From: Tethya wilhelma
Lineage: Eukaryota; Porifera; Demospongiae; Tethyida; Tethyidae
NCBI GenBank assembly: GCA_964030475.1
Contig: CAXIPT010000001.1
Coordinates: 22,474,776-22,538,775, forward strand
Reading direction: 5' to 3'
Length of the DNA stretch: 64,000 nucleotides
The notes beneath the pieces were generated by a model. That model saw only the letters and a program-made list of their open reading frames with translations. It ran no database searches and had not been told where the DNA came from. Shown piece by piece: positions 14,508-54,411 of this stretch. Each line of letters opens with the position of its first letter. Position 1 is the first letter of the stretch. A program made the translations under genes and the position numbers.

Positions 14508-15163
14508 CATTATTGAAAAGAAAATTGTGTATTAATGCACCCTTACAATTTTGTGTGTTTGTGATTATCTGTACAGATACATATATGACATAATCCATGT
14601 AGTCAATAGGCAAATAAGTTTATCTACATGCAGTAAAACACATAGCTATTGCATGAGAAAGGTATCATTGCCCTTTTTGCAATTATAATTATAATTATAA
14701 TTGCAAAAAGGGCAATCATTCAGTAGATACCTCTTCCATTGCATATGCCTAACATCGAACCCACAAATAAAAATTAACAAAACCTATGTATAGTTATTAA
14801 TACAAGTAGTAAAAATTTCAAAAAATAACCAGTGTATATAGGAATGGGCAGTGCTGTAAAAGTATTGGAACAAGATATAATATTATATGTCTCAATTTTG
14901 GCACATGACTATACTTCATTTTCATCATTTTGATACCGTTGTAAAATTAAACGATCACAACTTACAATGTTTACAAAAATCCTCACCAATGTTCATTGAA
15001 GTTGACAGATTTTGCAATGCTCATGAAAAAGTTCCACCAAAGAAAGAATGTTCACAAATCTCAATAATAAATATGACACTCAAATTATTATTACACAAAG
15101 TGGGCGTGGCTGATACCGCATGCCAAAATCACATGATCAGCAAGAACGCAGAGACATTGACAA
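14508..15163. other. Intergenic region with palindrome and dispersed repeat
   Basis: No gene is seen. The region contains a perfect 50-bp palindrome (14667-14716) and a dispersed repeat at about 14802-14930. That repeat starts CAAGTAGTAAAAATTT and matches the arms of the elements at 46430-47114 and 51766-52135. AATAAA at about 14764 could serve the Ig/IgGFc gene. The last 250 bp precede the ATG of gene 1 and include a GGGCGTGGC box at about 15101. Confidence 0.6.
14667..14716. repeat. Perfect 50-bp palindrome
   Basis: ATTGCCCTTTTTGCAATTAT and its exact complement meet with no spacer, giving 25 + 25 bp. Weak complementarity continues outward (GGTATC versus GATACC). It probably represents a small fold-back element. 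Confidence 0.85.
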
Positions 15164-18100
15164 ATGGCCCTCAGAAGTCCTTACAGCTACAACCATGGGG
15201 ATAAGTATAATGGTCAGCTGAATGAATTGATCAGAGCTTGCAGATTTGGAGAACTTGGACGAGTGAGATATCTGTTAGTACACCAGGAAATACCAATAAA
15301 CGATACCTGCTGGGATGATAGTGATCATACTGTGACCTATACCCCACTCTCGGCTGCTGCTGAACGTGGAAATGTTGAAGTTATGAAGCTACTGTTTAAA
15401 CATGGCGCTAATCCTGATTTTCTTTGGTCGACCCCATCCTCTACTCCCCTAATGGCTGCTGCCAAGAATGGCCACTATGAAGCTGCAAAACTTCTACTGC
15501 TGAATCGTGCCAAAGTGGATTTCTGTACAAAAGTTGGTCAGACCCCACTCACACTAGCTGCTGGAAGTGGCCATACCAAGCTAGTTAAACTCCTGTTGGA
15601 TAATTGTGCTGATGTAAAACACTGGTCTTCAGCATTGAGACTAGCATGTGAGAAAGGCCATAAGGAATGTGCTGAGATACTTATAGAGCATGGTGCTGAT
15701 GTTAATCACTGTGCCAATGAAGGTACTCCATTGATTTGCGCTGTAAAAAATGACCACATTGCGTGTGCCAAGTTATTGCTAGAGAAAGGAACTGATATAG
15801 GTGTTGAAACTCTATTGAATGTGATTAAGGATAAGAAATTCAGTTTTGCTAGACTTTTCATACAGAGGGGAGTACAAGTTGATGCAAGAGTGTTATCAAG
15901 TACAATCAAATCAAAGAACCCAACCCTCATGAGTGCTGTTCTACAGAATGCTGAGAAACACTTGCTAGTAGAAATGAATGATGATTTGGTACAGGCAGTT
16001 GTGGATGGAGGCCATGAGTTTGCCGAAGTAATTCTACCACATGTATATAATATTAATGTCCGACTCAAACTAGGAGATACAGCCTTGATGGAGGCAGCCA
16101 GGTGTGGTAAAGTAGAACACGTGAAGCTACTTTTAAAACACTCTGCACAAGTCAATGCACAAAATGCATATGGATACACTTCTTTGATGTTTGCAAGCCA
16201 TAGAGGTCACACAAAGTGTGTGCAACAGTTGGTAACAGCAAATTATATTGATCTTAACGTACAAGATAGCAGTGGATGTACAGCCCTCATGATAGCCTGT
16301 AAAAATGGTCATTCTGGTGTTGTTCAAAGTTTGCTGATGAACAATGTTAACTTAGAAGTATTGAGCCAAAGAAATCACTCAGCACTTCATTATGGTGTGA
16401 AATCTAATAATCCTTCAATAGTTAAGATGCTTTTGGATGAAGGTGCAGACGTTCACCAACTAACACCAGATGGCAAAGACATTGTTCAGTTTGCACATGA
16501 GCAGCACAAAAAACCAAGCCATCGTATGATTCAAACAATACAAGAAGTCCAAAGTAAATTATCTGATGCAAAGCTTCCACTGTCCAAAGCTGCCCAACTC
16601 TTACTCCCTTTAGCCCAAGAATGGCGTAATATAGGTACACTGCTTAAACTTCCAGACAGAACCTTGAATACTATTAGTGGTAGTGACAGAGAATGCCTTC
16701 ATGAGATGCTCAGACAATGGTTGTCACAAGTTGACCCTCTTCCTACATGGTCATCACTAGCTGAAGCAGTTGAACCAATCAACTCAATTATAGCAGAAGA
16801 AATTTGTCAGAAGCACTGTAGCAATGAGGTAAGTCCAGCCAGTGAAACAAACCAACCTGATGAGGACCAAGACACTGTAGAGGAACAGAAAGAGGAAGCT
16901 GAGAAGAACAATACTGAAGAGAATGTAGATATTTCAGAGGACAGTGAAGATGAAAGCAGTACACAAAACACTAAAGACCCAAACCATGAAGAACACTTTG
17001 CTGCTGTCAAGAAAGCAATGGAAGAAAAAGGAACATTGAAACACGCTTTATCCCATGGAGTGATGGTTGGTCCTGCTCGATCAGGAAAGAGCTCCCTGAT
17101 GTCACGTCTTGCTGGTGAAATGCCTATATCTGACTCACCCAGTACTGGTGTAGCTGAAAAGGTCATTCAAGTTGTTGGAGTTCGAAAATCTTACTCTATA
17201 GCCCTTGGTGTTCATGACACCATCTGGTTTAAACTACTGTATGACCAAGAAGCCATTAGACTGATGAAACTGGCCACTCAAAACATCACATCCCAACCAC
17301 AGCAACCAGCTACTTCCCAACTTACTGATAGTACAGTGATAACACAACCTACTTCCACTTTGCAAAGTGAAGTGGAGAATACCTCACCTATGGAGCAGTC
17401 TTATGTCAGTGAGCATGTCTCTACCACTGAATTGAGTGTTACAACTCCACCAAAAGAATACTTCACAGGTCCATACCCAGAAGGATACATACCTCCGATG
17501 GAAGTATTTAAAGCTGCTACTGAAGGAAAAGGCTTAGAGTCCCTTCGTCAACACTTTGAGAATTCTTGGTCATTTTATCTGACTGATACTGGAGGACAAG
17601 TGGAGTTTCAAGAAGTGATTCCTCTGTTGGTGTCAGGACCTTCTGTGTTCTTTTTCACATTTCGTCTTGATCAAGACCTTAACCAACGATTCACAATTGA
17701 GTACCATCTTCCTGAAGGTGGAAGGTCAGAGCCATACCAGTCTACCCTCACTGTGGTGGAAGCAATCCTTCAAACCCTCGCCAGTATAGCTTCAATGGGA
17801 ACATTTACTTACAAAGGTCCACAAGTGAAGAGTGTTTCACTAAATCCCAAAATGTTCATCGTTGGAACTCACAAAGACAAGCTCAACCCAGCTACTGCTG
17901 ATTCAGAGATCAAAGAGATAGACGGGTTCCTTCAGAAAGTTATCAAACCCACTTCATACTATAATGAAGAAATAATTCAATTTTCCAGCAAATCGCAGCT
18001 TATCTATACAGTCAATAATTTCTCACAGGATTATTCGGACTTCAAAAAGATTCAGCTAAGTGTTGAACGTGTTGTTTTTCACAATCGGTTCCTAGTACAC

Positions 18101-21100
18101 TTCCCCACTCACTGGCTAATCTTCAGCCTTGTTCTTCGTCAAGAAATGATCAAAGATAGCATCATAAGTTACGAACAGTGTTTCTCTATTGCCAAAGACT
18201 GTGGCATTGCAGACACTGAAGAGCTGGACCATGCACTGTGGTTTCTACACACAAAGATTGGACTAATCCGCCACTTCCCAACACCTGGTCTACAAGAGTT
18301 TGTGATTCGTGACCCACAAATCCTGTTTGATATGGTCACAAAGCTTATTGTGAACACTTTCACCTTTGAAAATTCAGTCAGTAAACGATGTTCTACTGAG
18401 TTTGAAAAGAAAGGAATATTCACTTTAGATGAATTCCTAGCACTTCAACAGGAGTCTACTTCCTTACTTCCACAGGAGAAGCTCTTACATTTGCTGGAAA
18501 ATCTCAAAGTAATTGCTCCATTTCAAGAAGGAGGTCAGAAGAAATTCTTCATCCCCTGTGTTCTAGCCCATTCTGAAGAGTGTGAATTTCAGTCCTTACC
18601 TCGGAGTTCAGACATTCCTCCAATGCTAATTACATTCAAGTGTGGGTACTGCCCCAAAGGTCTCGCTGGAGCTCTCATTGTATACCTCCTCACAAACAAG
18701 ATGGGATCAAAGTTCAAATGGATTCTAAAAACTGATCAAATTTTCCGCAACCAAGTATCATTTCTTGTCAGCTCTTGTGATATCATCACACTCAAGATCC
18801 ACCCCACTTTTTTGGAGCTTATCCATTCTTCAGCTAGGAAGACAACTGAAGAAGCAAAAAAGAGAAATTGCAGCTTAACTCGCATATCAATTGAAAGTGG
18901 AATCAAGCTATTATCATCGCTAATGAACTTCACCTCTAATGCTACATCTTCAATCAGCTTCTACTGTCAAAGTCCAGTCTGCAATAAAAGCCATCCTCCA
19001 CATCCTGCTACAAGTATCGTTGAAGATGATCAAGGATCTGTGTTGTTGTGTGATAAATCAGGTGCAGCTGAAATCTCAGACCTACCTGATGGCTACTCAG
19101 TTTGGATGCAGGAAGAAGTAGCAACTGTTCTTGATAACAATGTATTGTCAAGGAAAAGTGGGGCATTAACGACTCACAGTCATGGATATCATGACAAAGT
19201 ATTGGATACCAATGATGTGAGTGTTGATCTCATTTGCATGTGACTTTTTTAACAGTTACATATTTTGATGTCAATAGTATAAAGTTTATAACAATGTTTT
19301 TATTCCTTATTTTCAGATGAAAGATTGTGACCTGTATGAAGCAACTTCCTACCCAAATATTTCACAACAAATAATTGGTTAGTGAGTACAATTCTGTCTG
19401 TTTGCATTATTTCTCTTTATACTTCCTGAGAAGCAGTGTTTACTTAACCTTGTTCCCAACTTAAGCTCTCTCCTTTGACCTTACACTCACAGTAAGGGAA
19501 GGGGGGAGCCTGGTTGGAAAATCTGGCAGTCATAAAACTGCACAATTGCAGCAGAGGTTAATACGGGCTATAGTTAGCTCATGAATATTCTAATAGGTAC
19601 AAGCACAGTACAAGCTAGTTATTTTGGACACGCGATTGCCTGCAGCTTAGTCGGCAATTTTTTTCGAATAGAAACCTTATGTCAATTTAATGTATATTGT
19701 ACATTTTCTATTTATTTGAAGGAAAGGGCTGGGTGAGATGAAGAGAAATTTTGAATCCAACTTACAGTTTTGAAGTTAACCTTTATCTTGGGCGTCCACT
19801 TGAGCGTCTATCAAGCTTCAACCAACAATGGCAGTGCAGGACTCTTCTGTTTTATATCTCTTAACCATTTTCTCTCCGTGTCACCCTCTGAAAGGTACTT
19901 ACCTATCGTTAGAAGCACACAAAGCTCAGAATCAGAGCCTTATTGCTGGTATGATTTGCCGACAAAAATTTTCCCAGAACATGCACACCATTTTTGTTGC
20001 CATCGTATTTGTACATGGAACCAAGTCTGTTTTCGCTTTGTATAGTAGTTATACAGTATAGATTTGTGCTGGCTGCCAATGGCTTTCGCATCACATGCAT
20101 AGATGAAAAAATAAAAACAAAAAAAAAATGTATATATTCATGAGTAAACTGTAGCCCGTAACCTTAAAGATCGTGCTTTTGCATTTGCACCATTCTCTTT
20201 CAGTCGTTCCGCCAACGGAGAGATCACGTGAATTTGTTTACACGATGACATCATTTTTTAACTAAAGTTTAGCTGACTTAGACGGTAGTATAGGTAGAGG
20301 TATAAAAGCAGCTCATGCATGTTTTTGGAGCAATTGGAGCCAAAAAAACTTGACACAACATTGCAGGTATGTTTTTACAACGTATATGAGATATAACTTA
20401 GAGCATTTAGCATGCCATTTTTTTTACTAGCTGATTTTGTGAACAATATTGTTAACTTACCAAGAGTGACAAAAGTTGTATGTGCGCTAGCACTCACAAA
20501 AATGGTGAGAATAACTCAAGGATTTATGTTTGCAGTAGCTATCTAGGCATGTGGACACGGGAACTGAGTCTTAGACTAGTGCACAAAATGGTCACTGGAT
20601 TGAAGTTATTGCTCAGGCTTGTACACAAACAAATAAACCCAAGTTGGCGCAGGCCGGCGCACACTTCAAGATTGATAAAATCAGATCATTGACAGTAAAA
20701 AATAATAACTACTTCACAATCACTACTCTGCTCTTCTTCACATGTAGCACCACTGTTTTCCTTCTGCAAGTCTGTCCTGATAGTTTACAAGTCAATTGTT
20801 TGTTGCTCTGTTGAAAGTCACCGTTAATTTTTATTAATAACTCAATAATTCATCCATTTACAATTACCAGCGACGACCCTTACCAATCTCAATACATTAT
20901 ATATTCTTGTACCGTATATTTTTCACTCTCTTTTTATATGGGAACAAGCTAATTATTCCATATTTAGATGCTTTGATACATCTATTATTAGTACCCAAAG
21001 CATTATGTCACAAAGCAATGCACATAATAGTCTCCAGATAGGTTTTTGTCCAGAGAGTATAGGTTGCAGGTTTAGGCTTGCAATAAGACCACACTTTTTG

Positions 21101-22760
21101 AGGTATACTTGAGAAAACTTGAATAGTAAGGGATTAAGACAATGTATACTTTCAATATAAAGTATAAGCTTGTAGCTATAGATAAAACTTGGATAGAAAA
21201 ATTCCTATGTGAATAATTAATGAGCTTGCTTCAGGGGTGCCATTTTTTTACCTCTGCAGGGTGTAAATAAAAATGTATGTATTACATGCATTGGGGCGCG
21301 TTCCATTGGCAGAACGGCTGCTTGGCACTAAGCATTGAAGAAGCATTGTTTACTAGTTTTGCAATTAGTTGTCTGCACGTGGTTAGCATGTCACACATGT
21401 GGGTAATTAATGTACTAATCATTTGGTGTGTGGAATGCTAATTATACATTGTTTATTCATTGCATGCAGCATCTCATAGCTACCAGCTAGGTTCTCACAG
21501 TGAACATAAGGCAGCACATCATGGTACCCAAGATCATTCAAGTACAGAACATGTAAGTAAACTTTATGCTTCCTGCATGCGAACAGTATATAATAATATT
21601 ATATTTATCAATTTTAAATTGCCGCCCTAAATTGGAGTCATATTAATTTCACCATCACTAATAGACTATAGCCTAAAATACAGAAGTGTTTTCATGTGTT
21701 GCACATGTAGCCCTTAACTCAAAAGGTCATATAATTTCCCCCTTGCCCATACATACAGTTGGAGCATAGAGATGTGACAAGAGATTTGAATGAAGAGACA
21801 CCAAAGACTCAAGGTTAGCTACTGACACATACACACTCTCTCACCACTTGAACACTGATGTGTAGACTGACTCTCATATATATAGTTGTGGCTCACACAC
21901 GTACCCACATCTCTAGTGTATGTTCATGTGGTATTATAATATACCATAATATTATGGGACTTAAATTTTGCACCTTAATATTTGCTGTTTTCACTGAAAG
22001 AGCCCCATGGACCTGCAAAAATTATTCATCAAATTTTTTCGTGAAAAATGCACTTCTGGCAGAGCCATCTGTTAATTGCAAAATTTATTCAACGAAACGT
22101 TTGTGGAGCACTATCTGCAAAATTTAAGTCCAGTAAAAATTTAGTCCAATACGGTATGTGTTGTGTTTATGACATGAGGGAAGTCTCCATTGATAACCTC
22201 TTGAGAGGGTTTTCATATATAAGACAAAATACTTTAGTGATTTTTTCATGCATGTGTATAGACACACATGAGTATTGTATAAACAGCATCTGCAATCCTC
22301 ATGCATCTGACCTGCATGATAGATCATGACATTCTATGGAAAGAAACTTATAGTTTCTGCTAGATCATTATACTGAAGTAGTGCCTATACTGCTTGCATG
22401 TAGTGTCATTTTATGAAGTATAATTATAACACACATGTATGTTCAATCACTGCAAACGTGTTTACAGATTCAACTGGGATAGTTGATGGATGTGATTGGG
22501 ATGAGATTTGTGACTATTTGGGCAAACTGGATCAACCTCAGATTGTGCGACTGGGTGGGAAATTGGGTTTGGATGTTTTCAATCTTGAGAAGATGAAGAC
22601 CCTCCCTGATGACATGGTGAGAGCATGGCTGAGGAAAGAAGGAAAAGTCACTGAAAAGTGCAGCACTCCTCTTACCTGGAGAGTATTGGTCAAGGCACTG
22701 AGGGAGATTGGACAGACAGGTGTTGCTGATGATATTGAGAGAGCCAAAGGCAATAACTAA
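15164..22760 (+). CDS. Ankyrin-repeat / Death / ROC-COR GTPase / Death-domain protein (gene 1)
   Basis: There are five exons: 15164-19216, 19317-19377, 21470-21552, 21759-21813 and 22468-22760. All junctions are GT-AG and phases agree, giving about 1,514 residues. Residues about 20-440 are ankyrin repeats (TPLxxAAxxGHxxxxKLLL pattern). Residues about 470-555 are a Death domain (LRQWLSQVDPLPTWSSL), followed by an acidic linker. A ROC-type GTPase follows, with a P-loop GPARSGKSS near 635, DTGGQ near 807 and GTHKDKL near 900, then a COR-like region to about 1,240 and a Cys/His-containing segment. The last exon is a second Death domain (residues about 1,418-1,514; MVRAWLRKEG and TWRVLVKAL). By family knowledge, ROC-COR proteins are GTP-controlled switches and Death domains mediate homotypic signalling. 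A cytosolic innate-immune or cell-death role is inferred. The two small middle exons encode a His/Glu-rich linker. Confidence 0.88.
20301..20366 (+). promoter_or_regulatory. Possible internal alternative promoter and leader exon in gene 1
   Basis: GGTATAAAAGCAG (TATA at 20301-20308) is followed about 60 bp later by a good donor, TTGCAG/GTATGT at 20366. If used, it would make a transcript that splices into the downstream exons carrying the C-terminal Death domain alone. This rests only on motif spacing. Confidence 0.25.
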
Positions 22761-30995: not shown

Positions 30996-32477
30996 ATGGA
31001 ATGTAATTTTAATAAGGATTATCTATTAAAAAATTGCTCTGGTGTTACTCATGTACCCAATTATGTTCCAACTTCAGATTCAATGCCTAAAGTGCTCCAT
31101 ATGCCGTCAAACCCAATACAAAGGTATGCTCTATACCTCAAAGGAGTGTATCAAGGTCCATTTGTGTTATCAGACAAGTTCTCAAACCTCACATGTGGTG
31201 TATTTATCAATCTTGCTCTTGTGAAGAGTGGTCGAGTCAGTCGTTCTGAGGCTGAGAAGTTCACGAGAGATACTTTTCACGGTCACATCGATGACATTCT
31301 CCAGAAGAAGGAGCCCATCAAACTAGAGGAGGTGATGAAGCCAGTAGAAGGTCAGAGTAAAATGAAGTGTGTATACATACATGGTGCACCTGGTATTGGG
31401 AAGAGCACATGTGTGAGGGAGCTTTGTAGGAGGTGGGATGAAATTGAAGCTATGCGAAGGTATTCACTGGTTATTCTTCTGCAGCTATGGGAGAAGCGAG
31501 TGCAACAAGCTCAAAGCGTAAAAGATTTGTGTTACCATTTTGACCGAGAGCTACATGAAGCTGTAGCAGCTGAGATTGTAGCTTGTAAGGGAAAGGATGT
31601 ACTGTTTGTACTGGATGGCTTTGATGAACTTCCAACTTCACTTCAAAAGTCTTCTATATTTGTGAAACTCATTCGAGGCATATATCTTGCCCATTGCACA
31701 GTACTGGTTACTAGTCGTCCTTCTGCTACTGAAAACCTTAGAGTAGCCACCATCAGTTATGCAAGCAAATATATAGAAGTGATTGGCTTTACTCAGGAGG
31801 TCATTGAGCAGTATGCTAGAGCGTTCTTTACTTCCAAACCTGATGTGCTAACTGACTTTATGACCTACTTATCCACCTATCCAGCTATCAGAAGCTTAAT
31901 GTACATTCCATTGATTTGTGCAATAACAGCAGAAATTTACAGTTACAGTAGAACAGCCAATAGGCCTATACCCTACACTATGACTCAATTATACACTGAA
32001 ATATGTCTGACACTACTGCAACGACATTTAGGTGAGGATGACCCACTAGCAGAGCAACTGTCTGTGACTGATAATTTACAAGATCTTTCACCACTACTAC
32101 TAGAATCATTTTGTTCTTTAGCTAAACTAGCCTTTGAAGGACTTGAAAGAAATAAGATAGTATTTCACAATCTTCCCATTAACTTTGTTAATTTTGGTTT
32201 CATGAATTCCCAAGCAGAACTGTACATGTGGAGGAAAGCTATCATTTCTCATAGTTTCTTACATCTCACCCTCCAAGAATTTCTTGCTGCCTTTTATATA
32301 TCTCAACTTCCATCTAGTGATCAGCGGAGAGTGTTTAATAAGCATTCTAAAACACCTTCATGGAATGCTGTATGGAATTTCACATCTGATCTTACACTAT
32401 ACCACATTGGGATAAGGTTATTGATACCACCGAACAAAGGACACTTGATTCAGATGACTCAGACCAAGACAATGTAG
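30996..32477 (+). CDS. NACHT-domain NTPase (NLR-like), truncated C-terminus
   Basis: The open frame begins at ATG 30996. A pre-NACHT segment is followed by GAPGIGKST (Walker A, residues about 129-137), VLFVLDGFDELP (Walker B with the NACHT acidic extension, about 202-213), a TSRPS sensor-1-like motif and a terminal HLTLQEFLAAFY winged-helix/superhelical signature near 426. Known NACHT proteins use nucleotide-driven oligomerisation in innate immunity, and sponges have large NLR families. Here no leucine-rich repeats follow. NLR-like homology ends near 32400, and the frame closes at 32477. A ROC-COR reading frame opens in a different phase at 32390 and shows gene-1 homology from 32417. The gene is therefore truncated, a fusion needing a frame change, or mis-assembled. 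The true first exon may lie upstream. Confidence 0.8.
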   Translation: MECNFNKDYLLKNCSGVTHVPNYVPTSDSMPKVLHMPSNPIQRYALYLKGVYQGPFVLSDKFSNLTCGVFINLALVKSGRVSRSEAEKFTRDTFHGHIDDILQKKEPIKLEEVMKPVEGQSKMKCVYIHGAPGIGKSTCVRELCRRWDEIEAMRRYSLVILLQLWEKRVQQAQSVKDLCYHFDRELHEAVAAEIVACKGKDVLFVLDGFDELPTSLQKSSIFVKLIRGIYLAHCTVLVTSRPSATENLRVATISYASKYIEVIGFTQEVIEQYARAFFTSKPDVLTDFMTYLSTYPAIRSLMYIPLICAITAEIYSYSRTANRPIPYTMTQLYTEICLTLLQRHLGEDDPLAEQLSVTDNLQDLSPLLLESFCSLAKLAFEGLERNKIVFHNLPINFVNFGFMNSQAELYMWRKAIISHSFLHLTLQEFLAAFYISQLPSSDQRRVFNKHSKTPSWNAVWNFTSDLTLYHIGIRLLIPPNKGHLIQMTQTKTM

Positions 32478-35015
32478 AGGAGCAGAAAGAAGAAACTAAA
32501 AAACACTTTGCTGCTGTTAAGAAAGCAATGGAAAAAAAAGGAACATTGAAACACGCTCTGTCTCATGGAATGATGGTTGGTCCTGCTCGATCAGGAAAGA
32601 GCTCCCTAATGTCACGTCTTGTAGGAGAAATGCCTATGCATGACTCACCCAGTACTGGTGTAGCTGAAAAGGTCATACAAGTTGTTGGAGTTCGAAAATC
32701 TTACTCTATAGCTATTGGTGCACATAAGAGTATAAGAGGTCAGAAAGTCACCTGGTCTAAACTATTGAATGACCAAGAAGCCATTAGACTGATGAAACTG
32801 GCCACTCAGAACATACCATCCCAACTACAGCAACCAGCTACTACCCAACCACAGCAACCAGCTACTACCCAATTCACTGATACTACAGTAATAACACAAT
32901 CTTCTACCACTGTGATTCTAAGTGTACCGGAGATTACTTCATTTATAGACCTATCTGATGTCAGAGAGCCTCTTTCTACCATTAAACAGAGTGTTACAAC
33001 TCCATTCTTAAAAGAAGACTACACAACTCCATACCCAGAAGGGTACATACCTCCAATGGAAGTATTCAAAGCTGCTATTGAAGGAAAAGGCTTGGAGTCC
33101 CTTCGTCAATACTTTGAGAATTCTTGGTCATTTTATCTGACTGACACTGGAGGACAAGTGGAGTTCCAAGAAGTAATTCCGCTATTGGTGTCAGGACCTT
33201 CTGTGTTTTTCTTCACATTTCGTCTTGATCAAGACCTCAACCAACAATTCACAATTGAGTACCGTCTTTCTGAAGGTGGAAGGTCAGAGCCATACAAGTC
33301 TACCCTCACTGTGGTGGAAGCAATCCTTCAAACCCTCGCCAGTGTAGCTTCAATGGGTACATTCACTTACAAAGGTCTACAAGTGAAGAGTGTTTCACTA
33401 AAACCAAAGATGTTCATTGTTGGAACTCACAAGGACAAGCTTAAACCAACTACTGCTGATTCTAAAATCAAAGAAATTGATCAGCGTCTCCAGAGAGTCA
33501 TCATGTCAACCTTACACTATGACCAAGACACAGTACAATTTGCCAGCGATTCACAGCTTATCTACACAGTGAACAATTTCTCAAAGGATGATGAAGACTT
33601 TATAAAGATCCGGTCAGGTGTTGAACGTGTCGTTTTTTGCAATCAGTTCAAAGTTCCCTTTCCAACTCACTGGCTAATCTTCAGCCTTGTTCTTCGACAA
33701 GAAATGATCAAAGATAGCATCATCAGTTACAATCAATGCTTCTCTATTGCCAAAGACTGTGGTATTGCAGACACTGAAGAGCTGGACAATGCACTATTGT
33801 TTCTACACACAAAGATTGGACTAATCCGCTACTTCCCAATACCTGGTCTACAAGAGTTTGTGATTCGTAACCCACAAATCCTGTTTGATATGGTCACAAA
33901 GCTGATTGTGAACACTTTCACCTTTAAAAATGTTGGTAAAAAGCCTTCAACTGAGTTTGAAAAAAAAGGGATCTTCACTGTAGACAAATTCCTTGAACTT
34001 CAACAGGAATCTACTTCCTTACTACCACCAGAGAAGCTCTTACAATTGTTGGAAAGTCTTCAGATAATTGCTCCATTTCAAGAAGAAGGTCAGGAAAAAT
34101 TCTTTATCCCCTGTGTTCTTGCCCATTCTGAAGAGTGTGAATCTCAGTCCTTACGTCAGAGCTCAGACATTCCTCCACTGTTGATTACATTCAAGTGTGG
34201 GTACTGCCCCAAAGGTCTTGCTGGAGCTCTCATTGTATACCTCCTCACAAATAAGATGGGGTCAGAATTCAAATGGCTTTTGAAGACAAATCAAATTTTT
34301 AGAAATCAAGTATCATTTCTTGTCAGCTCTCGTGATATCATCACACTCAAGATCTACCCCACTTTCTTAGAGATCATCCACTCTTACGAACATGGAACAA
34401 CTATTAATACTGGATATCATGTAAAGCACAGTAATATTTGTGATAAAGTTTGTAATTATGTCGAAGATGGTATTAGGAGTTCAAACTGCTTTTCAAAAGT
34501 TCAATATTATAAGAGTTTCTATTGCAATAGCTCTGACTGCAACGTTGAAGTTTTGCCGCATCCTGCTACATGTGGCATTAGAAATGATCAAGATGGTACT
34601 AGATACTTATTGTGCACGGAACAAGGAAATAATGCCTCAAAGCCACCCCAAAGCTTTTCAGTGTGGTTTCAGAGTGAGAAGCAGACAGAAGAAACTGGAA
34701 ACTGTTCCCAGCAATCATTATCTCATTTAGAGGATGGTGATAAAACTTCTAGCAAATCAATTTTTGTGCTTGATAACCGAGCTCACCCAGGAACACTATC
34801 TGCTCATGATGTAAGTGTATACTGTAGATCAGGAGATTTTTGCCATTAAAAAATTTTCGCTATGTCCGCATGTGATGAAAATTAAAAATGTATATATAGC
34901 GGCCAAAATTTCCCAATCTACAGTATTATAGCTTTAGGTTGGATTGTATATCAATTACATCTGTTGTAGTATTAGTTGTTTATTTCATCCATACATATAT
35001 TGTACTGTTGTTTTG

Positions 35016-35097
<82 letters not shown>

Positions 35098-36334
35098 NCC
35101 TTGGAAGTACTGTCAAGTTACATTGTACCGTAGATCGGGAAATTTTCACCGTTAAAAAATTTTCGCCACGTGCACGAGTGGCGAAAATTAAACGCGCGAA
35201 AATTTAAAATGTATGGTGATCTTTACCGAATCGGTCAAAGTGGCGAAAATTAAACACGCGAAAATTAAACAAGCGAAAATTTATAGCGGCGAAAATTTCC
35301 CAATCTACGGTATATATGTTTTTATTTAATTTTCTTGCAAATGTATCTATTGTAATAAGAATATACAATACATATTTCGTTTATACAGGTTGAAGGATCT
35401 TGCTCTCATCTTGCAAAGAGGCTGAAAACTATAGAGGAACCTACGTACATGACAACAGAAAAAAGGGAAATCATTAAAGCTTGCAAGCCTGTGACCAATA
35501 AAGAAGTGGATGCAGAACCTCTTAAGGAAGCAGTGAGACTGATTCTTCTCACTTGTAACGAGGATGAAAAGTGGGCTGTTTACGAAAGACTGAAGCCACC
35601 AACCATTAGTGGTGAAGGTGAAACCCTTCAAAGAGCTCTCCTTCTACCTGAGAATAACACTGTGATTGGAAGGTTTGGTGGATACACAGTTGCAGTTTTG
35701 ACAACAGAACAAGGCAAGAAATCAGAACGTGAGCTCAAACTGGCTTTGGATTTTTTTTCCTAATGCAGTAGCCATTATTGCTGTTGGAGTCGGGTATGGA
35801 AAGGACCGAGACTCTATCAAGTTTGCTGATGTAATGGTTTCAGATCACATTGAAGATGCTTCCCAAGTCTCTGTGTTGCAGAATGATGCCAGTGAGCAAA
35901 TACGAGTTGAACAGAGAGGCCCACGTACTGCAATAATAAACGAACTCCTCAGATACTTTAGAAAGACTGAGGAGTGGGAAATTGAAAATGACTTTAAGGT
36001 ATCGAGAGAAGGACGAACTGCTATTGCTAAAGTAGGTACTATTGTGAGCAGTGAAGTATTAATGAGATCAGAAACTTTGAAAAATCAATGCATGGATCTT
36101 GCAGCTGAAACCATTGGAGGTGAAATGGAAGGTTGTGTACTGCTGAACATGGTTGAATGGATGGACCATGAGACTCAACACCGACCTCTTAGTGTGATCG
36201 TGATCAAAGGAGTTGCCGACTATGGAGACAACCAAAAGGACAAGGAATGGCAGTTCACTGCAGCCAAAGCAGCTGCTGATTTTGTTCATTACTGCCTTGA
36301 AGAGACTGGAGGAGGGGCAAAGTTTGTGCCATGA
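32417..36334 (+). CDS. ROC-COR GTPase spliced to a nucleoside-phosphorylase-like effector domain (gene 3; one frameshift)
   Basis: Exon 32417-34810 is a close paralogue of the gene 1 GTPase. It has an acidic linker, P-loop GPARSGKSS (32578), DTGGQ (33142), GTHKDKL (33424), a COR region, and a donor CATGAT/GTAAGT at the same place as gene 1's donor. The next exon (35389-36334, acceptor TTATACAG, phase 0) instead encodes a PNP_UDP-type domain: GRFGGYTVAVLTTEQG, IIAVGVGYG, GGEMEG (ribose-binding Glu) and KGVADYGD (catalytic Asp position in nucleosidases). The frame breaks at a run of eight T (35751-35758); seven would keep it open. Its start is unclear: it could be fed by the NACHT exon, by the ANK-Death paralogue (phase 0) or by its own leader. 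By analogy with bacterial and fungal defence proteins, the effector may hydrolyse a purine nucleotide. That is inference. Confidence 0.8.
34819..34926. mobile_element. MITE family A, copy 3 (short)
   Basis: It begins TACTGTAGATCAGGAGATTT and ends TTTCCCAATCTACAGTA. It lies only about eight bases after the splice donor of the ROC-COR exon, so insertion occurred at the very start of the intron. Confidence 0.75.
35017..35098. repeat. Poly-T tract ending in an assembly N
   Basis: A run of about 81 T ends in N at 35098 and lies in the intron between the ROC-COR and phosphorylase exons. It is probably an assembly or poly-A-type retroposition artefact. Poly-Phe frames across it are meaningless. Confidence 0.9.
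35126..35312. mobile_element. MITE family A, copy 4 (best preserved)
   Basis: It has complete ends, TACCGTAGATCGGGAAATTT on the left and AAATTTCCCAATCTACGGTA on the right, and is 187 bp long. Internal GCGAAAATTAAAC blocks repeat several times. Confidence 0.85.
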
Positions 36335-37188: not shown

Positions 37189-37443
37189 GTCCTAACTCAT
37201 TGACATGCAGGTTTTGGTATAAGGCTAGCTGACATAAAGGTTGCTGCATGAGTCACAAATTCCAACTAGATCACAATCATACATTATTCTTACTGTGGCC
37301 ATTAAATTATGATTCCATGTAATGTGGCTAACCATGGATCTGCAATGGACAGCAATCAACTTATGAGTGAAAGAGAAAATTTATGTCTATATAGTAGAAG
37401 TCGATCCTGTACTATTATCCTAAATTCCCCCTTGCACACACAG

Positions 37444-37502
37444 TTGGAGCATATATAGATGTGTGACAAGAGATTTGAATGAGAAGACACCAAAGACTCA
37501 AG
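37444..37502 (+). pseudogene. Relict of gene-1 exon 4 downstream of the phosphorylase exon
   Basis: This segment and its flanks (about 37425-37620) match the exon at 21759-21813 and its following intron closely, including acceptor ACACAG and donor CTCAAG/GTTAGC. An inserted TATA disrupts the frame (a stop soon after GGAGCATATATAG). No Death-domain exon follows in recognisable form. It shows that gene 3's locus derives from a gene-1-like gene whose original C-terminal exons decayed. Confidence 0.8.
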
Positions 37503-37638
37503 GTTAGCTACTGACACACACACACACACACACACTCTCACCATTGCTGATGTGTAGACTGACTCTCATAGTTGTGGCTCACACACATACCCATCTCTAG
37601 TGTATGTTTACTAGTGTGGTATGTGTTGTGGTTGTGAC

Positions 37639-39086: not shown

Positions 39087-42000
39087 TCAACAATTTAATT
39101 TCATCATCATAATCTTAAGTCCTTGTTGATCTTGTGGTAGTAGAGGAGAGCTCTCACCATCATCATCCTCTGACTGGTAGTCTTCTTCCTGAATAGCAAG
39201 GAGGTGGGCAGTTCTAGAACATTCACCTCCAGGTATCAAGACAGATATTTCGATAGAGATAGCCTCATTTTCCTGTGATGGGGAGATGTGAGATAGAGGA
39301 GTCATTGCTACAGCTTTCTTGTAAGCGAAATGATGAGCTTTTTCCTGATAGAGTTCATTCTGTGGATTCTGTGAGCATTCATTAAGATCGTCTAGAACTG
39401 GTATGCCCTGATCAAGCTTGTGTTGTGAAGTGAGCATTGGTGATTCCAGGTCAATGAGGGTACTCCTAGCAGTGGTCACATGTTCAGTATGGTTGCTAGT
39501 GTAAGTGCATTGATCTGCAGTTGATGTCAGTTCAGCCCCACCTCCTTCATTTTCATTTTCAGTGGTTTCTTCATCTAAGCTTATTGTAGAAATAGTATCC
39601 AAGGGTTCAGGGAGAGCATTGACTTCGGTCTCACTGACTTGTAAGAATTCCTCATCTGATTCACTCACTGTGTTGTCCATGGGTTGACTATTTGCTACTA
39701 GTGGCTTACAAAAAGTAGAAGTTATCTTTTGGAATAGGTTGTTGATGATGAAGAGGTTCACATGATGTACAAGGATAACTATAAAGGTAACAAATGCAAT
39801 GCCAATTGAAATGTAAGCAACCACAGTCTGGTTCCCCTTGACTTCGTTGACAAGGAAGGTGGCAATGGTCAGAGTAATGAGGTTTAAGAGAGATATGCAA
39901 TCCAGTAGAGTGTTTTGCCTCTTTTTGTATATTTTGCTTTTTTTCCATTCAGTGATAATTATCTGAAAAATAAGCATGCTTGTAACCACAATACCTATAC
40001 TGAGGAGGTTGATAGAAGGATCTCCAAGAACATTCACAGCTGATATAAGATACAGGAGAACACGCACTAGGAATAGCAGTCCAATCCAATAACGATGGTC
40101 TTTGTTGAAGGGATTGTGATAAGCATCAATGAAGGCAATGACTTTACCATTTCCAAAGATCCATCTCAAGGGTCCTCTGTTAGGACAATAGACAAGCCAC
40201 TGCCAAGCAAAGAGGATGAAAGTGAATAGTGTACCGAATATGAGAATGAGAAGGGCTGTGATGAAGAGGGGGATATGCTTTCCACTGAGATATGGGATGT
40301 TGGCGTCAACTAACCAGACAACTTCGGATGTATGCAAACCATCAAAGTATTTGATATTTAGTGTTGTAAATTGCAATGCAGCAATGATTGTACGAAGGAG
40401 CTTTGTATAGGAGAGTAGAATAAGAGTAGCCAGTGTTGCTATTGGGTTCTTTCCAACAAAGAGCATAGAAAACCTTGTTGAATGGTCACTAATGACGATA
40501 ATTGCAACAACCAGGGAAATGACATAGAGAGGAAATGCTAGTTGTAGCCAGGTTTTTACATAGGCATCCATTCCATCATAGAAGCAGGTCTCAAATCCAA
40601 AGTCTAGATTAAGCCATGCTATGAATACAGATAATATCCTTGTTCCATCGTGTGGAAAGAAAATAGCACGATTTGCGGCAAATATGTTAGCATAGAAAAT
40701 GAGAGCATTGAAAGTTCCTTCAGCTACAACAAAGTTTACCTTTAGAATAAAAGCAACTAGGACTATTCCAGCTAGAGCAAAGACAATAATCAATGCAAAC
40801 CAGTTGTTAGAACACGGCCTGCAATGTGAACTACCAAAAATTAGGCTTAAACTGTCTGCACAAGATCCACAGAGTCTTCCTATGCGATTGAAAGAACACA
40901 GTTCATTTGAGCCATTTTCAATGTTTAAGTCGATGTAGATATTTTCAGTTGGTGATTTACAGTAGTCAAAAGGACAGTATTTGTGTAGTGTATAACCATT
41001 GTGATCTGTAGTGTTTACATAGTCAAACCATACATTGTCTTTTCTCTGGACTACTTCTGTGTTGATATCACAATTGGTTATGTAATTAGGATAGATAACA
41101 GGGTCACATTCACAATGTGAATTGTTTAAGTCTGTAAATCCAATTGGACACGGTGTGATGTTCACTGTGAGATTTGCTATGGATATTCCTTCATCTTTGC
41201 ATGGACCATCGACATAGAGATAGAGCTCCTCAGTGTTGTGTGGAGTGAGGATGCTATAAGTTAACTCTGTACAACTACCATCTCCATTAGTTGACTGAAT
41301 AGATTGTCCCTCACCAAGTGTTGCTTCTAGTGTTGATAAATATGCATGTATTTTAGGCACACCAGTGGTACTGATTGCTATAGAGGTGTTGATATGGTCA
41401 ACTGCAACAAGTGACACGGTAAACCTCTCTCCCTTTCTGACATACTTTGGCTGAGGATGGTAACTACAGTCTGATTGGTTGTCTTTGCAGAAACAAACAC
41501 GAACTGGATCAGATGATATTACTTTGGTTGAGTTGAAATCTTGTACCTCAAGATCAGTAATGCTGACAATGTAAGAGACGCTGCTAAGCAAATTGTTTTG
41601 GGATGATATAGAAATAGGGAACACTCTACACCTGTCCAATAAACCACCATATAGAGCATCTCCAGCTATTTTTGCAGAATTCTTAGTTATATTCGTGTTC
41701 CAATAATTAATATCAGGGCTGTGTTCTTCTATAAAGATATTGAAAATATTATATGGCATTAGGCCTTGAAGAAAGCATTTATTGTCAGTTGTGATCCTAT
41801 TGCTAATAGGTGATGCCAAACATGTAGCGGAGGTTGTGTCATCAGCAACATACACTGCTCCTCCAAAATTGGCAATGTTGTTCTTCAGTTGTAATGACAT
41901 CCATGCTGATGAGTTGGAAATGCAAATATCATATACAGTGTAACTGAGACACTCTACTTTGGTTTTTTGCAAGTATACTTTAGCACTTCCTTCCAAACAC

Positions 42001-44498
42001 ATTCCACCGCCTCTCTCAGCATGATTCCCTAGAATGTTAGTTTTTGATCCATCAGTGAGCCTTATTATTGAACTGATAGCATGAATTCCTCCACCTCTAA
42101 ACGCGGCATTATTTCTACTTACTGTGAGCTGATTCTTGAAGTTGAGTTCACTCTGGTAGGCATAGATTCCTCCACCAGACGATGATGCGGTGTTTTCGGA
42201 TATAGTCATTTTTCCATAAATGTAAACATTAGATTCTGTAGCTGCAATGGCCCCACCTTGTACAGCTCTGTTGTACATGAAGTTGGCTCTACCCTTGAAG
42301 ACTAGTTCACTTTGAAAAACACTTAGTGCTCCTCCTTCTTCGGATGTGTTGGAGTTCTCAATGTTAGTGTACCCAGCGAATGTCACATTGCAAGAGTAAA
42401 ACAACAGTGATCCGTAATTTCTTGAAACTGTGGTGTTGCCAGAAAAGTCTAGTGTGCTTTGTATGGCATATAATGGACCTTGGCTACCTACATTATTTTG
42501 CATAACAAGAAAACCATTGCTATTAAAAGAAGTAAAAATTAAGTAAAAACCTGATCCTTTTTCAGCATCATTGTTAGTTAAAGTGCAATTAACTATTGAG
42601 AGCGGTGAATGTTCAGGATTAACAGCATAGACTACTCCACCTTTTCCTTTATTGCCAGTCACGCTATTGTTGCTGAGTATACTATTAATTATGATGATAT
42701 TGGAACTTTTATCAGCCAGCATTGCTCCACCAGCTCCATTCACTACCTTAACAGTGTTACTGTTGAAAGTACTGTTAACTACAGTGATATTAGGACTTGA
42801 ATTAGCAAACACTGCTCCACCAGCTCCACTCTGATCTCCAGTCACAGTGTTGTTGTTGAGTACAGTATTAACTATAGCGATGTTAGGACTTGAGTAAGTA
42901 TTCACAGCTCCACCAGCTCCCACCTGATCTCCAATCACAGTGTTGTTGTTGAGTATACTCTGAAGTATTGTTATGTTAGAACTTGAGTAAGCATACACTG
43001 CTCCACCAAATCCATCCTGTTTCCCAGTCACAGTGTTGTTGTTGAGTATACTAGTCACTAAAGTGACATAAGGACATGAAAAAACACATATTCCTCCGCC
43101 AGCTACTTCTTGATCTCCAGTCACAGTGTTGCTGTTGAAAGTACTATTAACTATAGTGATGTTAGGACTTGATTTACTATACACAGCTCCACCAAATCCT
43201 ATCAGACCTCTAGTTATAGTGTTGTTGTTGAGAATACTATTTACTATAGTGATGTTGGAACTAAAGTAAACATTCACTGCTCCACCCCATCCGTTCTGAT
43301 TTCCAGTCACAGTGTTGCTTTTTAGTATACTATTGACTATAGTGATATTAGGACTTGTGTTAGCATATACTGCTCCACCTGCTCCATTCTGATCTCCAGT
43401 TACAATGTTGTTGTTGAGTGTACTTTTAACTATAGTAATGTCAGGACTTGAGTAAGCATGCACTGCTCCACCAGCTCCAACCTGACCTCCTGTCACAGTG
43501 TTGTTGTTGAGTGTGCTGTTAACTATAGTGATGTTAGGACTTGAATCAGCATTCAGTGCTCCACCCCATCCACTCTTAACTCCAGTCACGGTGTTGCTTT
43601 TAAGTATACTATTGACTATAAAGATATTAGAACTTAAGTTAGCATACATTGCTCCACCAGCTCCATCCTGATCACCAGCCACAGTATTGTTGTTGAGTAT
43701 ACTGTTAACTATAGTGATATTAGAAGTTAAGTAAGTATACACTGCTCCACCAACTCCATTTTTATCTCCAGTCACACTGTTGTTGTCGAGTACACTATTG
43801 ACTATAGCGATGTTAGGACTTGATTCAACATATACTGCACCACCAAATCCTTTATCTCCACCTTGGACTTTATTGTTTTTAAAGATGCATTGTGTAATAC
43901 TAATAGCAAATGTTTCAATAACTATGATCGCTCCACCCACTGTACAAAAAACTGTTGGATTACCGGCATATTGGCATAAAACCTTCTTTCCAGCTTTCTT
44001 TCCAGTATTGGAGACGAAAGAGCTCCTTGTGATATTAGTATTGTGTAAATTATATAGGTATAATCCAGTTCCATTACTTCCCTGACCATCAAAAATACTA
44101 TGTTCCACTGTTAAATTTTGGACCCAAATGACTTCATTATCCACACACCGAAAGACTGCTAATCCTTTCATGTTAACAATACTAATTGACTCAAATCTGA
44201 ACCTAGTAGACTCATGGCATGTGATTGATGTTTCAGAGTGGGAAGCTGAATTTGATTCAAAGGATAGAACTGTTTTATTTTGAATTAAAAGCTCGGATTC
44301 AAGGCTGTGGTTCCCAGGTAGAAGGATAAGAGTGGTGTTGGAGGCAAAGTAGTTGCTGGATTTGTTAGCATACTGGGAGAGAGTGAAGCAAGGCACACCT
44401 TCTTCAGGACATGGGATGTTTGATGATGGTGTGACATAGTAGGTGTCAGCAGACGTGAGCACCAATAAGGGCAATAGGAAGAATGGTATAGTGGTCAT
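39087..44498 (-). CDS. Giant beta-helix repeat, multi-pass membrane protein (Pmp-like)
   Basis: This is a single 1,803-residue open frame. It has an N-terminal signal peptide (IPFFLLPLLVLTSA) and then a parallel beta-helix region. Residues about 216-620 contain some thirteen 31-residue repeats of the form GGAVYxxSSPNITIVNSxL then NNNTVTGDQxG. More degenerate GG-A/I repeats resembling chlamydial Pmp repeats follow. A Cys-rich segment (CSFNRIGRLCGSCADSLS) precedes 8-9 hydrophobic membrane segments (about 1,236-1,584) and an acidic cytosolic tail of about 200 residues rich in Ser/Glu. The layout suggests a surface receptor or adhesin with an extracellular beta-helix stalk; this is inferred from topology. 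N-glycosylation sequons (NxT/S) are very frequent. Similar proteins are multicopy in sponges and other early animals as far as I know. There are no introns, unlike most of its neighbours. Confidence 0.9.
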   Translation of the reverse strand: MTTIPFFLLPLLVLTSADTYYVTPSSNIPCPEEGVPCFTLSQYANKSSNYFASNTTLILLPGNHSLESELLIQNKTVLSFESNSASHSETSITCHESTRFRFESISIVNMKGLAVFRCVDNEVIWVQNLTVEHSIFDGQGSNGTGLYLYNLHNTNITRSSFVSNTGKKAGKKVLCQYAGNPTVFCTVGGAIIVIETFAISITQCIFKNNKVQGGDKGFGGAVYVESSPNIAIVNSVLDNNSVTGDKNGVGGAVYTYLTSNITIVNSILNNNTVAGDQDGAGGAMYANLSSNIFIVNSILKSNTVTGVKSGWGGALNADSSPNITIVNSTLNNNTVTGGQVGAGGAVHAYSSPDITIVKSTLNNNIVTGDQNGAGGAVYANTSPNITIVNSILKSNTVTGNQNGWGGAVNVYFSSNITIVNSILNNNTITRGLIGFGGAVYSKSSPNITIVNSTFNSNTVTGDQEVAGGGICVFSCPYVTLVTSILNNNTVTGKQDGFGGAVYAYSSSNITILQSILNNNTVIGDQVGAGGAVNTYSSPNIAIVNTVLNNNTVTGDQSGAGGAVFANSSPNITVVNSTFNSNTVKVVNGAGGAMLADKSSNIIIINSILSNNSVTGNKGKGGVVYAVNPEHSPLSIVNCTLTNNDAEKGSGFYLIFTSFNSNGFLVMQNNVGSQGPLYAIQSTLDFSGNTTVSRNYGSLLFYSCNVTFAGYTNIENSNTSEEGGALSVFQSELVFKGRANFMYNRAVQGGAIAATESNVYIYGKMTISENTASSSGGGIYAYQSELNFKNQLTVSRNNAAFRGGGIHAISSIIRLTDGSKTNILGNHAERGGGMCLEGSAKVYLQKTKVECLSYTVYDICISNSSAWMSLQLKNNIANFGGAVYVADDTTSATCLASPISNRITTDNKCFLQGLMPYNIFNIFIEEHSPDINYWNTNITKNSAKIAGDALYGGLLDRCRVFPISISSQNNLLSSVSYIVSITDLEVQDFNSTKVISSDPVRVCFCKDNQSDCSYHPQPKYVRKGERFTVSLVAVDHINTSIAISTTGVPKIHAYLSTLEATLGEGQSIQSTNGDGSCTELTYSILTPHNTEELYLYVDGPCKDEGISIANLTVNITPCPIGFTDLNNSHCECDPVIYPNYITNCDINTEVVQRKDNVWFDYVNTTDHNGYTLHKYCPFDYCKSPTENIYIDLNIENGSNELCSFNRIGRLCGSCADSLSLIFGSSHCRPCSNNWFALIIVFALAGIVLVAFILKVNFVVAEGTFNALIFYANIFAANRAIFFPHDGTRILSVFIAWLNLDFGFETCFYDGMDAYVKTWLQLAFPLYVISLVVAIIVISDHSTRFSMLFVGKNPIATLATLILLSYTKLLRTIIAALQFTTLNIKYFDGLHTSEVVWLVDANIPYLSGKHIPLFITALLILIFGTLFTFILFAWQWLVYCPNRGPLRWIFGNGKVIAFIDAYHNPFNKDHRYWIGLLFLVRVLLYLISAVNVLGDPSINLLSIGIVVTSMLIFQIIITEWKKSKIYKKRQNTLLDCISLLNLITLTIATFLVNEVKGNQTVVAYISIGIAFVTFIVILVHHVNLFIINNLFQKITSTFCKPLVANSQPMDNTVSESDEEFLQVSETEVNALPEPLDTISTISLDEETTENENEGGGAELTSTADQCTYTSNHTEHVTTARSTLIDLESPMLTSQHKLDQGIPVLDDLNECSQNPQNELYQEKAHHFAYKKAVAMTPLSHISPSQENEAISIEISVLIPGGECSRTAHLLAIQEEDYQSEDDDGESSPLLPQDQQGLKIMMMKLNC
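42630..43850. repeat. 93-bp coding tandem repeat array
   Basis: The beta-helix repeats are also similar at DNA level: blocks such as GTGTTGTTGTTGAGTATACT and CCAGCTCCA recur every 93 bp about thirteen times. This points to recent expansion or gene conversion among repeats. Confidence 0.85.
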
Positions 44499-52154: not shown

Positions 52155-52368
52155 TGTCAGATTGAGCGAGGAGTTCATTTCACTGTGTCACCTATGTCTG
52201 TAGTATGAACGAACTGTGAATAATGTATTTTGACATTAGTACTTAATTATGATGTAATTTCTGGTATATATGCTATGTAAATAGTGAACACTTGTTTTTA
52301 TCTGTGTGTCTATATTGTGCTGGTTACAAGAAGAATAAATATTCTTTACGACTTGAAGTAACACTACA
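52155..52368 (+). mobile_element. Probable 5' long terminal repeat
   Basis: A segment starting TGTCAGATTGAGCGAGG and ending CACTACA is followed at once by TGGTGTCAGGAGTGG, a typical primer-binding-site type sequence starting with TGG. The gag ATG follows 25 bp after the putative end. No 3' partner was found in the window, so the left boundary is uncertain. Confidence 0.5.
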
Positions 52369-52392
52369 TGGTGTCAGGAGTGGCCGAGAAAG

Positions 52393-53406: not shown

Positions 53407-53418
53407 TGTATGGATTGT

Positions 53419-54411
53419 TTACACTGGGTACTGCCTACTAATATGCAAACACACATTTGCTAAAGCCTCCCCAGCAGTTTTCCCACACCTCTCTCTCCAC
53501 ATAAATTCATCAAGATGAAGAGCCAGCTGTTCAGAGCTAATCCCCTTCATCCGTTTGAACTTTGTCTTGACCCGGTTCCAATAGCTCTCGACAGTCTGGG
53601 TATTGACTCCAGTGGTAGGATCAACAAAATGGAGTGAGTGATTGACAACCCCATGCCCTGCAATTCCTGGTAGGGATGCCACTCTCCTGTATGCTCGCCA
53701 ATCATCACTCCAAATTGTCGTACCAGGTAGTGTGTGCTGTTGGATGATCGGCAGAAGAGTTGCACGGTCTCTACTGGGAACCAACTCCATGTAACCAAGA
53801 GCAGGGGTGTGTGAGGTGTCAACAAGTCCGAAGACCCACTGTTCCCTTCCTGGTCGTCGTCCACGATTGTACTACATGTACATACATTGTTTGTATGCAG
53901 TATGTTAAAGTCTGTCTATACTAAAAATTATTTTAATTTACTAATTAATTTTTAATTGTAATTATACCTTTGGTTTGTGAGTGAGCAAACTTTCATCGAT
54001 CTGCACAACAACACCAGGTCCACCTAATCTGATTGGTGTTTGGAGCAGCCAAGTTGTGCAGACCTCCCTCAACCACTGGTACACTGCACAGGCAGATGCC
54101 TCAGTTACCTCGGCCTCTTCAGCAGCATCTGTGACTGGGTAGTTCCTAGCCCACCAGTACATCAAGATCATCCACTTCTTCAAAGGTAGACGAGACTTAG
54201 AAAAAAAACTACCATCTCTGATTGATGTGCACTTGTGACATGCAGGGCAGCGAAACCTGGTGCCATCACTAACATCAGATCTGTCTGAGAGCTGCATAGC
54301 GGTGCCACAGGGACATGTCTTGTTTGTAGCCAAAAGACCCTTTCTTTGCAGATAGGTGATCAGCTGATCAGTTTCTCCAAAAATCACTGGACCTAGCTGC
54401 AAGATGGGCAT
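53419..54411 (-). CDS. IS1595/Merlin-type DDE transposase, one intron, apparently intact
   Basis: Exons 54411-53968 and 53871-53419 join in phase 0 (donor AAG/GTATAA, acceptor GTACATGTAG), giving 298 residues. The N-terminus has a zinc ribbon (CPCG...CPAC). A helix-turn-helix-like segment leads into the DDE core: QIDESLL (first Asp), NRGRRPGREQWVFGLVD across the intron, IWSDDWRAY (second Asp), NHSLHFVD and VESYWNRVK (Glu). This is the ISXO2-like domain known from bacterial IS1595 and eukaryotic Merlin elements. The intron shows eukaryotic residence. Terminal inverted repeats were not identified, so it may be an immobile or domesticated copy. Confidence 0.85.

Follow-up and report, generated by a model that had tools for sequence, protein, structure and literature searches.

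An animal ROC-COR gene family whose tail appears exchangeable between Death-like and PNP-type domains, with a probably broken member at the locus examined

Organization of the locus

The 64,000-nucleotide stretch analysed here (the window, G000:C1:22474776-22538775) lies within a 124.6-Mb genome of 204 contigs, in which Wnt, an animal-specific family, is matched at nine places, with no match in 14 control genomes. To judge by its gene-family content and its small number of Wnt loci, the animal is probably a sponge. The window carries two related ROC-COR GTPase genes, termed gene 1 and gene 3, the former predicted to end in a Death-like domain and the latter in a nucleosidase-like domain of the PNP type. 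The family to which gene 3 belongs, and the nature of its tail, are the subject of this report. The features are as follows.

15161..19216 (+): gene 1 main exon; ankyrin repeats, mid Death domain, ROC and COR, with a phase-0 donor at its end
19317..19377 (+): gene 1 predicted tail exon A, by AG/GT borders and phase
21470..21552 (+): gene 1 predicted tail exon B, by splice borders and phase
21759..21813 (+): gene 1 predicted tail exon C; copies in the tails of L010, L020, L024, L032 and gene 3
22468..22760 (+): gene 1 predicted last exon, Death-like domain
30996..32477 (+): NACHT frame with a NACHT match, cut short
32406..32450 (+): NACHT/ROC-COR chimeric junction, where the reading frames differ
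32429..34810 (+): gene 3 ROC-COR exon, ending at a phase-0 donor; enclosing open frame 32390-34849
34811..35388 (+): gene 3 predicted intron; repeat copies at 34820-34926 and 35126-35313, and a poly-T run beside an N at 35098
35389..35763 (+): PNP exon, first open piece; N-terminal region of the nucleosidase, including the Glu12-like residue; frame from 35359
35753..36334 (+): PNP exon, second open piece, in another frame (35702-36334); GGEMEG, KGVADYGD and stop
37421..37622 (+): copy of the gene 1 tail stretch 21732-21934, 82% identical and spanning exon C, 3' of the PNP exon

The initial annotation held that genes 1 and 3 have nearly the same GTPase core and a common splice donor after COR, and both points stand: the cores are 75% identical, and a GTAAGT in phase 0 follows position 34810 in gene 3, as a phase-0 donor follows 19216 in gene 1. 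Because of this donor and the AG before 35389, the proposed gene 3 splice 34810/35389 would keep the frame, so that the claimed phase-0 splice to a PNP exon holds at its borders, but the exon itself is split by a frameshift. In the gene 3 core, COR-A (PF16095) scores 43.1 bits against a cut-off of 35.3, and the G1, G3 and G4 nucleotide motifs are intact (GPARSGKSS, DTGGQVEF and VGTHKD). In gene 1, the main exon, the three short exons and the Death-like exon follow one another in consistent phases, although Death, the sole Pfam match of the last exon, reaches only 14.3 bits (E 0.045) against a cut-off of 22.6. This exon has 150 scored matches in the genome, itself included. As a separate observation, a repeat with TAGATCxGGxxATTTT and CCCAATCTAC has copies at 34820-34926 and 35126-35313 within the predicted COR-PNP intron, and similar sequence was seen by eye near 29800.

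Condition of the window copy

On its 5' side the gene 3 ROC-COR frame is adjoined by the NACHT frame, 30996-32477, which lies in a different reading frame, so that NACHT and effector do not share a frame at this locus as they would in an NLR. None of 87 other NACHT matches extends past residue 482 (32441) of the NACHT frame, and no ROC-COR relative begins before residue 8 of the ROC-COR frame (32411), most of the close ones starting at residue 14 (32429). On the 3' side, neither window PNP piece alone is matched by PF01048 in a Pfam scan, owing to the frame break and to divergence, since relatives do match: 21 of 34 aligned relatives reach E 0.01 or better, the best at 2.7e-8. In view of the PNP frameshift and the out-of-frame NACHT junction, the window copy of gene 3 is, judging from its sequence, probably a broken member of its family, unless the assembly is wrong.

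The window also holds four stray N letters and two perfect tandem duplications, 3922-5346 with 6004-7428 (1425 bp) and 55263-56811 with 56871-58419 (1549 bp), each a recent duplication or an assembly artefact; the first continues past 5346 at 373 of 374 bases. It is possible, and in our estimate slightly better than an even bet, that the window locus is a dead chimera, in which recombination joined a NACHT fragment to a 5'-truncated ROC-COR and a frameshifted PNP, from which no protein is made, and that the architecture is real only in sister copies. The frame that closes at 35763 within the PNP exon, the differing NACHT and ROC-COR frames at their junction, and the tandem arrays of related genes around the locus all fit such a history. 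However, the PNP exon is open apart from its one frame break and shows constraint, with ratios of nonsynonymous to synonymous substitution (dN/dS) against L009 of 0.68 in the first part and 0.27 in the second, and the position of the break in a T run, together with the four N and the long perfect duplications, makes an assembly error possible.

Sister copies and the single-frame fusion

The genome contains at least 61 ROC-COR pieces at 55 or more loci (L numbers denote loci of this genome), and the second window PNP piece has 24 matches in it, 19 of which lie in open frames of at least 312 residues. At three other loci, COR and PNP fall within a single open frame. L021 (G000:C6:594600-604500, frame 1489-5766, minus strand) encodes 1426 residues with a complete ROC-COR followed by PNP; L013 (C1) holds COR and PNP in a 998-residue frame, with a frame break inside ROC; and L022 (C6) holds them in a 789-residue frame from which most of ROC is missing. 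A 48.8-kb ENA contig of another assembly encodes P0028, a complete ROC-COR-PNP protein of 1071 residues. PF16095 is above cut-off in gene 1, gene 3, L021 and P0028. The three single-frame loci and P0028, together with the phase-0 splice borders, make it very improbable that ROC-COR and PNP are merely separate adjoining genes, as the spacing of about 0.5 kb between the open frames in the window might suggest, and this alternative was rejected on the strength of the single-frame copies. Three tandem repeats of about 100 residues precede ROC-COR in L021 and look death-like by eye; Pfam gave no match above cut-off there, and none to a leucine-rich repeat (LRR).

Beyond this genome, a search with the L021 PNP region returned two proteins, P0028 and P0029 (25% identity, differently built), and a search with residues 20-1050 of P0028 gave 309 matches; among the 120 matches listed, none but P0028 itself covers more than 72% of the query. 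The PNP proteins P0006 and P0007 and the ROC-COR proteins P0039/P0041 and P0040 are probably exons of one gene in other assemblies, because the longest contigs of their source assemblies are equal (706516 and 1055012). In the COR tree P0039 and P0040 fall into a 98/98 clade with L018 and L012, and in the PNP tree P0006 and P0007 group with the L018 PNP (92/85). When viral contigs were searched for P0028, two stretches matched a pattern, and neither encodes a relative. A ROC-COR profile run on 2835 open reading frames from 80 bacterial PNP loci gave no match at E 0.001, and the whole fusion is therefore not seen in bacteria at those loci.

A further observation concerns the GTPase itself. Among the ROC-COR relatives in the matches listed (P0028-P0148), the residue that follows GK in the P-loop covaries with the one that opens the DxGGQ motif: Ser occurs with Asp in 37, Asn with Asn in 66 and Asp with Asn in 13, with no discordant case among the 116 of 121 proteins that could be read. 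In Ras, Mg2+ is contacted at both positions. Common ancestry may account for the pattern. The copies read in this genome are Ser/Asp, and L030, of a different type, has Thr.

The nucleosidase domain and its active site

The structural model of P0028 consists of Roc-COR plus an MTAN-like nucleosidase: its fold search matches 3dpu, LRRK1 and LRRK2. The best folds for the PNP domain are 5'-methylthioadenosine/S-adenosylhomocysteine (MTA/SAH) nucleosidases, and the domain of a relative is modelled with the phosphorylase/nucleosidase fold of the PNP_UDP_1 superfamily. With a PNP profile, the best bacterial conflict-effector match scored 148.8 bits versus 29.7 bits for the best MTAN in the PDB, although the bacterial loci had been selected with patterns that the same alignment supplied, which biases their scores upwards. 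By this sequence measure the ROC-COR-linked PNP lies closer to the PNPs of bacterial conflict effectors than to solved MTANs. Half of the 10 bacterial relatives examined carry EAD1 plus EAD8, TPR or restriction modules, and the PADLOC PN-superfamily effector model also matches (E down to 9.8e-13), which leaves the substrate unfixed.

Alternatively, the tail may be enzymatically active but serve signalling instead of suicide, producing a base or sugar phosphate messenger or using NAD or MTA/SAH as substrate. Such a role would agree with the MTA/SAH nucleosidases among the best folds, and Kaur et al. 2020 (PMC7159879) predicted messenger generation for conflict-system PNPases. However, the greater proximity in sequence to effector-type PNPs of bacteria, and the cleavage of ATP by the best-described Detocs PNP (review PMC11249213), make this unlikely.

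The window copy retains GGEMEG, KGVADYGD and, by alignment, all three canonical residues (Glu12-, Glu174- and Asp197-like), so that the motifs and the catalytic Asp/Glu expected of it are in place. The Glu174 and Asp197 positions follow the profile alignment, and PDB titles name Glu12Gln and Asp197Asn mutants; the Glu12-like site we take to be equivalent by its position and from E. coli MTAN. At one or more catalytic sites, substitutions are found in 7 of the 43 rows of the PNP table, and these are unevenly spread, with 5 of 9 ROC-COR-linked rows affected (L018, L020, L021, L022 and P0028) versus 2 of 34 others (P0006 and P0007, themselves probably ROC-COR-linked). The corresponding Fisher p of 0.002, or 1e-5 with P0006 and P0007 moved to the linked group, is only indicative because the rows are related. 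At the Glu174-like site, Gln stands in L021 and L022 and Val in P0028; L020 has Gln and Ser, and L018 has Asp at the Glu12-like site. Canonical residues accompany a frame break in the window copy, L010 and L013, and L012 is canonical with its PNP 3.3 kb from ROC-COR. Since substitutions affect five of the nine linked rows, ATP destruction cannot be assumed. The PNP domain is under purifying selection, with dN/dS of 0.10-0.45 in 15 pairs, values that are rough, as synonymous sites are near saturation in most. Both the 43-row table and the PNP tree omit P0010, P0011, P0015, P0017 and the partial PNPs of L023, L024 and L028.

These substitutions, and in particular the Val of the P0028 fusion, raise the possibility that ROC-COR-linked PNPs are largely pseudoenzymes that bind nucleotide or a partner and have lost cleavage, the more so as the two substituted rows outside the linked group probably belong to it. 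We consider this doubtful, however, as all three residues are retained in the window copy, L010, L012 and L013, the domain is under purifying selection, and a change of Glu to Gln or to Asp may leave catalysis intact.

Exchange of the tail

PNP lies within 3.5 kb downstream of ROC-COR and on the same strand at 9 of 55 loci, 7 of them within 2 kb; among the nine, one PNP is a 27-residue fragment by a decayed ROC-COR and another is 3.3 kb away. The pair was found in reversed order or on opposite strands at none of the 55. In 2000 local shuffles, with PNP places moved by up to 200 kb and strand random, such successions numbered 0.42 on average and never more than 3, against the nine observed; 23 of the 24 PNP matches were used, the omitted one being a 30-residue piece at a counted locus. 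Death comes first in at least 27 of the 55 loci by hand-picked lists, the Death places having been chosen by eye near ROC-COR loci (34 of 150 in an earlier tally; 22 of 150, plus 16 of 150 of a second list, in the tail tally). PNP is also found after Ank-Death, with no ROC-COR, at L009, L011 and L017.

In the PNP tree L020, L021 and L022 group together (100/100), whereas the COR tree joins L021 with P0028 (99/95) and L020 and L022 with gene 1 and gene 3 (100/100). Closely alike PNPs thus sit on different COR clades, and the tail slot has therefore been exchanged, a claim that rests on the comparison of the two trees, as the COR tree alone forces at most one change of PNP/Death label. About 0.45 kb 3' of the L018 PNP lies a Death piece with three stops, a remnant of an old tail. 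Within the window and L009-L032, exon C is copied only in the tails of ROC-COR genes: L024 and L032, both Death-tailed, have it, in L010 and L020 it separates COR from PNP, and in the window it lies 3' of PNP. It therefore seems that PNP exons have entered the same tail at more than one site. The ROC-COR cores of this genome bear a Death tail in some cases and a PNP tail in others, which supports the modular reading.

Other features of the window and genome

Elsewhere in the window, 39087-44513 (-) is one open frame of 1808 residues with a repetitive N-terminal part and, by eye, several C-terminal hydrophobic segments. At 52357-54435 a zinc-knuckle-like open frame (+) lies beside transposase-resembling frames (-), by eye mobile-element remnants, and 1648-4109 (-) and 11634-14507 (+) are related open frames in opposite orientation with motifs in common by eye. 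Outside the family studied, PF01048 is matched at 31.4 bits at G000:C4:3598644-3598844 (+), in a 1116-residue open frame.

Discussion

The present data establish the family and its slot, the single-frame fusion, a modelled fold for both halves, and PNP exchange between COR clades. Taken with the sequence of the window, they favour, at a probability of roughly 0.6, a reading in which gene 3 would be a member, probably broken, of an animal, probably sponge, ROC-COR multigene family whose last exon or exons after COR form an exchangeable slot, filled by a Death-like or a PNP-type domain. The initial annotation, which had described a modular effector system, is upheld as to ROC-COR, splice borders, motifs and the modular Death and PNP tails, for which the single-frame fusions and, in a relative, the modelled nucleosidase fold speak, but not as to a continuous PNP exon or a window copy that works as a protein, given its frameshift and out-of-frame 5' side; depletion of ATP or NAD by this copy stays a prediction.

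Several observations weigh against the slot reading. The stretch 35389-36334 is not one open exon, as one frame closes at 35763 and the remainder lies in another (35702-36334), and the gene 3 Roc scores 19.0 bits in Pfam, under the cut-off of 27. PF01048 exceeds its curated cut-off in few copies (L017, P0003, P0019 and P0022). The P0028 model is of middling confidence (predicted local distance difference test, 66; predicted template modelling score, 0.57), and a sequence search of the PDB with the ROC-COR profile gave no match at E 0.01. Of the 55 ROC-COR loci, 19 have neither tail in the lists used, an upper bound in which L011 is counted despite a Death piece, and some of the counted Death matches could belong to the following gene. 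Finally, none of the seven ROC-COR-PNP pairs within 2 kb combines an unbroken frame with three canonical residues.

If the tail is an exchangeable slot, a model of its function can be proposed in which the N-terminal ankyrin/Death part senses or recruits, and the ROC-COR GTPase then changes its conformation or oligomeric state, possibly akin to the cycling of Roco proteins between monomer and dimer (review PMC6337361), thereby switching on the tail, which would be released or assembled. Death tails may recruit adaptors, while PNP tails with an intact active site may cleave the glycosidic bond of purine nucleotides, stopping the cell or an invader. By analogy with bacterial immune ATP nucleosidases, purine nucleotide cleavage, of ATP or dATP, is the most likely activity of canonical tails; for the substituted ones, binding without cleavage appears as likely. 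The slot itself could switch through the arrival of a PNP exon in the tail region that separates COR from the Death exon, or through exchange of the gene's 3' half, after which the old tail would decay.

In 2023, Rousset et al. reportedly described immune ATP nucleosidases, the Detocs PNP effectors and their eukaryotic homologues. Among the switches known for PNP effectors are STAND NTPases, two-component relays and CBASS. The present family resembles the immune ATP nucleosidases and Detocs PNPs in its PNP-superfamily effector and immune-like architecture, eukaryotes included, but differs in that the switch is ROC-COR. PNP effectors that cleave ATP, and PNP proteins of immune-like build in eukaryotes, have been described (PMC11249213, PMC10197012), as have fungal PNP_UDP NLRs and PNP-STING fusions (PMC10197012, PMC12424679), which likewise plug a PNP effector onto an immune sensor or switch, but place PNP N-terminally and use other switches. 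In a sponge, Amphimedon TRADD-N proteins have PNPase among their C-terminal domains (PMC8195603), a variable domain after Death-type domains as here, although no ROC-COR is named for them in the part of that text considered. TRADD-N as a hidden partner was considered and rejected, the genome having one PF20694 TRADD-like_N place by a model that may miss other TRADD-N clades.

Kaur et al. 2021 (PMC8195603) describe bacterial conflict proteins of the AP-GTPase (ROC)-COR type whose C-terminus can be any of at least 24 domains; these proteins share with the present family a ROC-COR core, a swappable C-terminal effector, and the presence in one genome of several paralogues that differ in effector. 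They differ in their N-terminal leucine-rich repeats, in place of which ankyrin plus Death (gene 1) or other repeats occur here, L021 having no LRR match; PNPase is not named among their effectors in the portion of PMC8195603 considered, its figure aside. The DAPK1 group (PMC6337361) is alike in having ROC-COR with no LRR and, compared with the Death-tailed members, a C-terminal Death, but carries a kinase before ROC-COR, of which a Pfam scan of the gene 1 main frame, 15161-19240, found no family, and PNP tails are unmentioned in the part of PMC6337361 considered. In a Dysidea avara NLR paper the words PNP, phosphorylase and LRRK do not occur. The open-licence papers searched, a scope that takes in neither figures, supplements nor most subscription journals, yielded no animal ROC-COR that has a PNP tail in an exchangeable Death/PNP slot. 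What appears new is an animal ROC-COR with such a tail in such a slot, eukaryotic PNP effectors and bacterial effector-swapping ROC-COR proteins being known.

More tentatively, and with less than even likelihood, it may be that an animal has kept the bacterial arrangement of one ROC-COR switch with many swappable killing tails, as GTP-gated receptors of the LRRK/DAPK type in which the last exon, swapped among loci, encodes either a Death adaptor or an ATP-type nucleosidase. This would provide a LRRK-like, NACHT-independent route from sensing to nucleotide destruction, in which some tails may serve as pseudoenzyme decoys or guards. ROC-COR GTPases are medically important (LRRK2, DAPK1), and what their switch first evolved to control is an open question. 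In a family whose common core drives either a Death adaptor or a nucleosidase, cleavage of nucleotides would offer a simple readout of how the GTP state is transferred to an attached effector. Such a family would also connect animal Roco proteins with the bacterial ROC-COR conflict proteins that swap effectors, and the known eukaryotic PNP effectors would gain a GTPase-gated branch.

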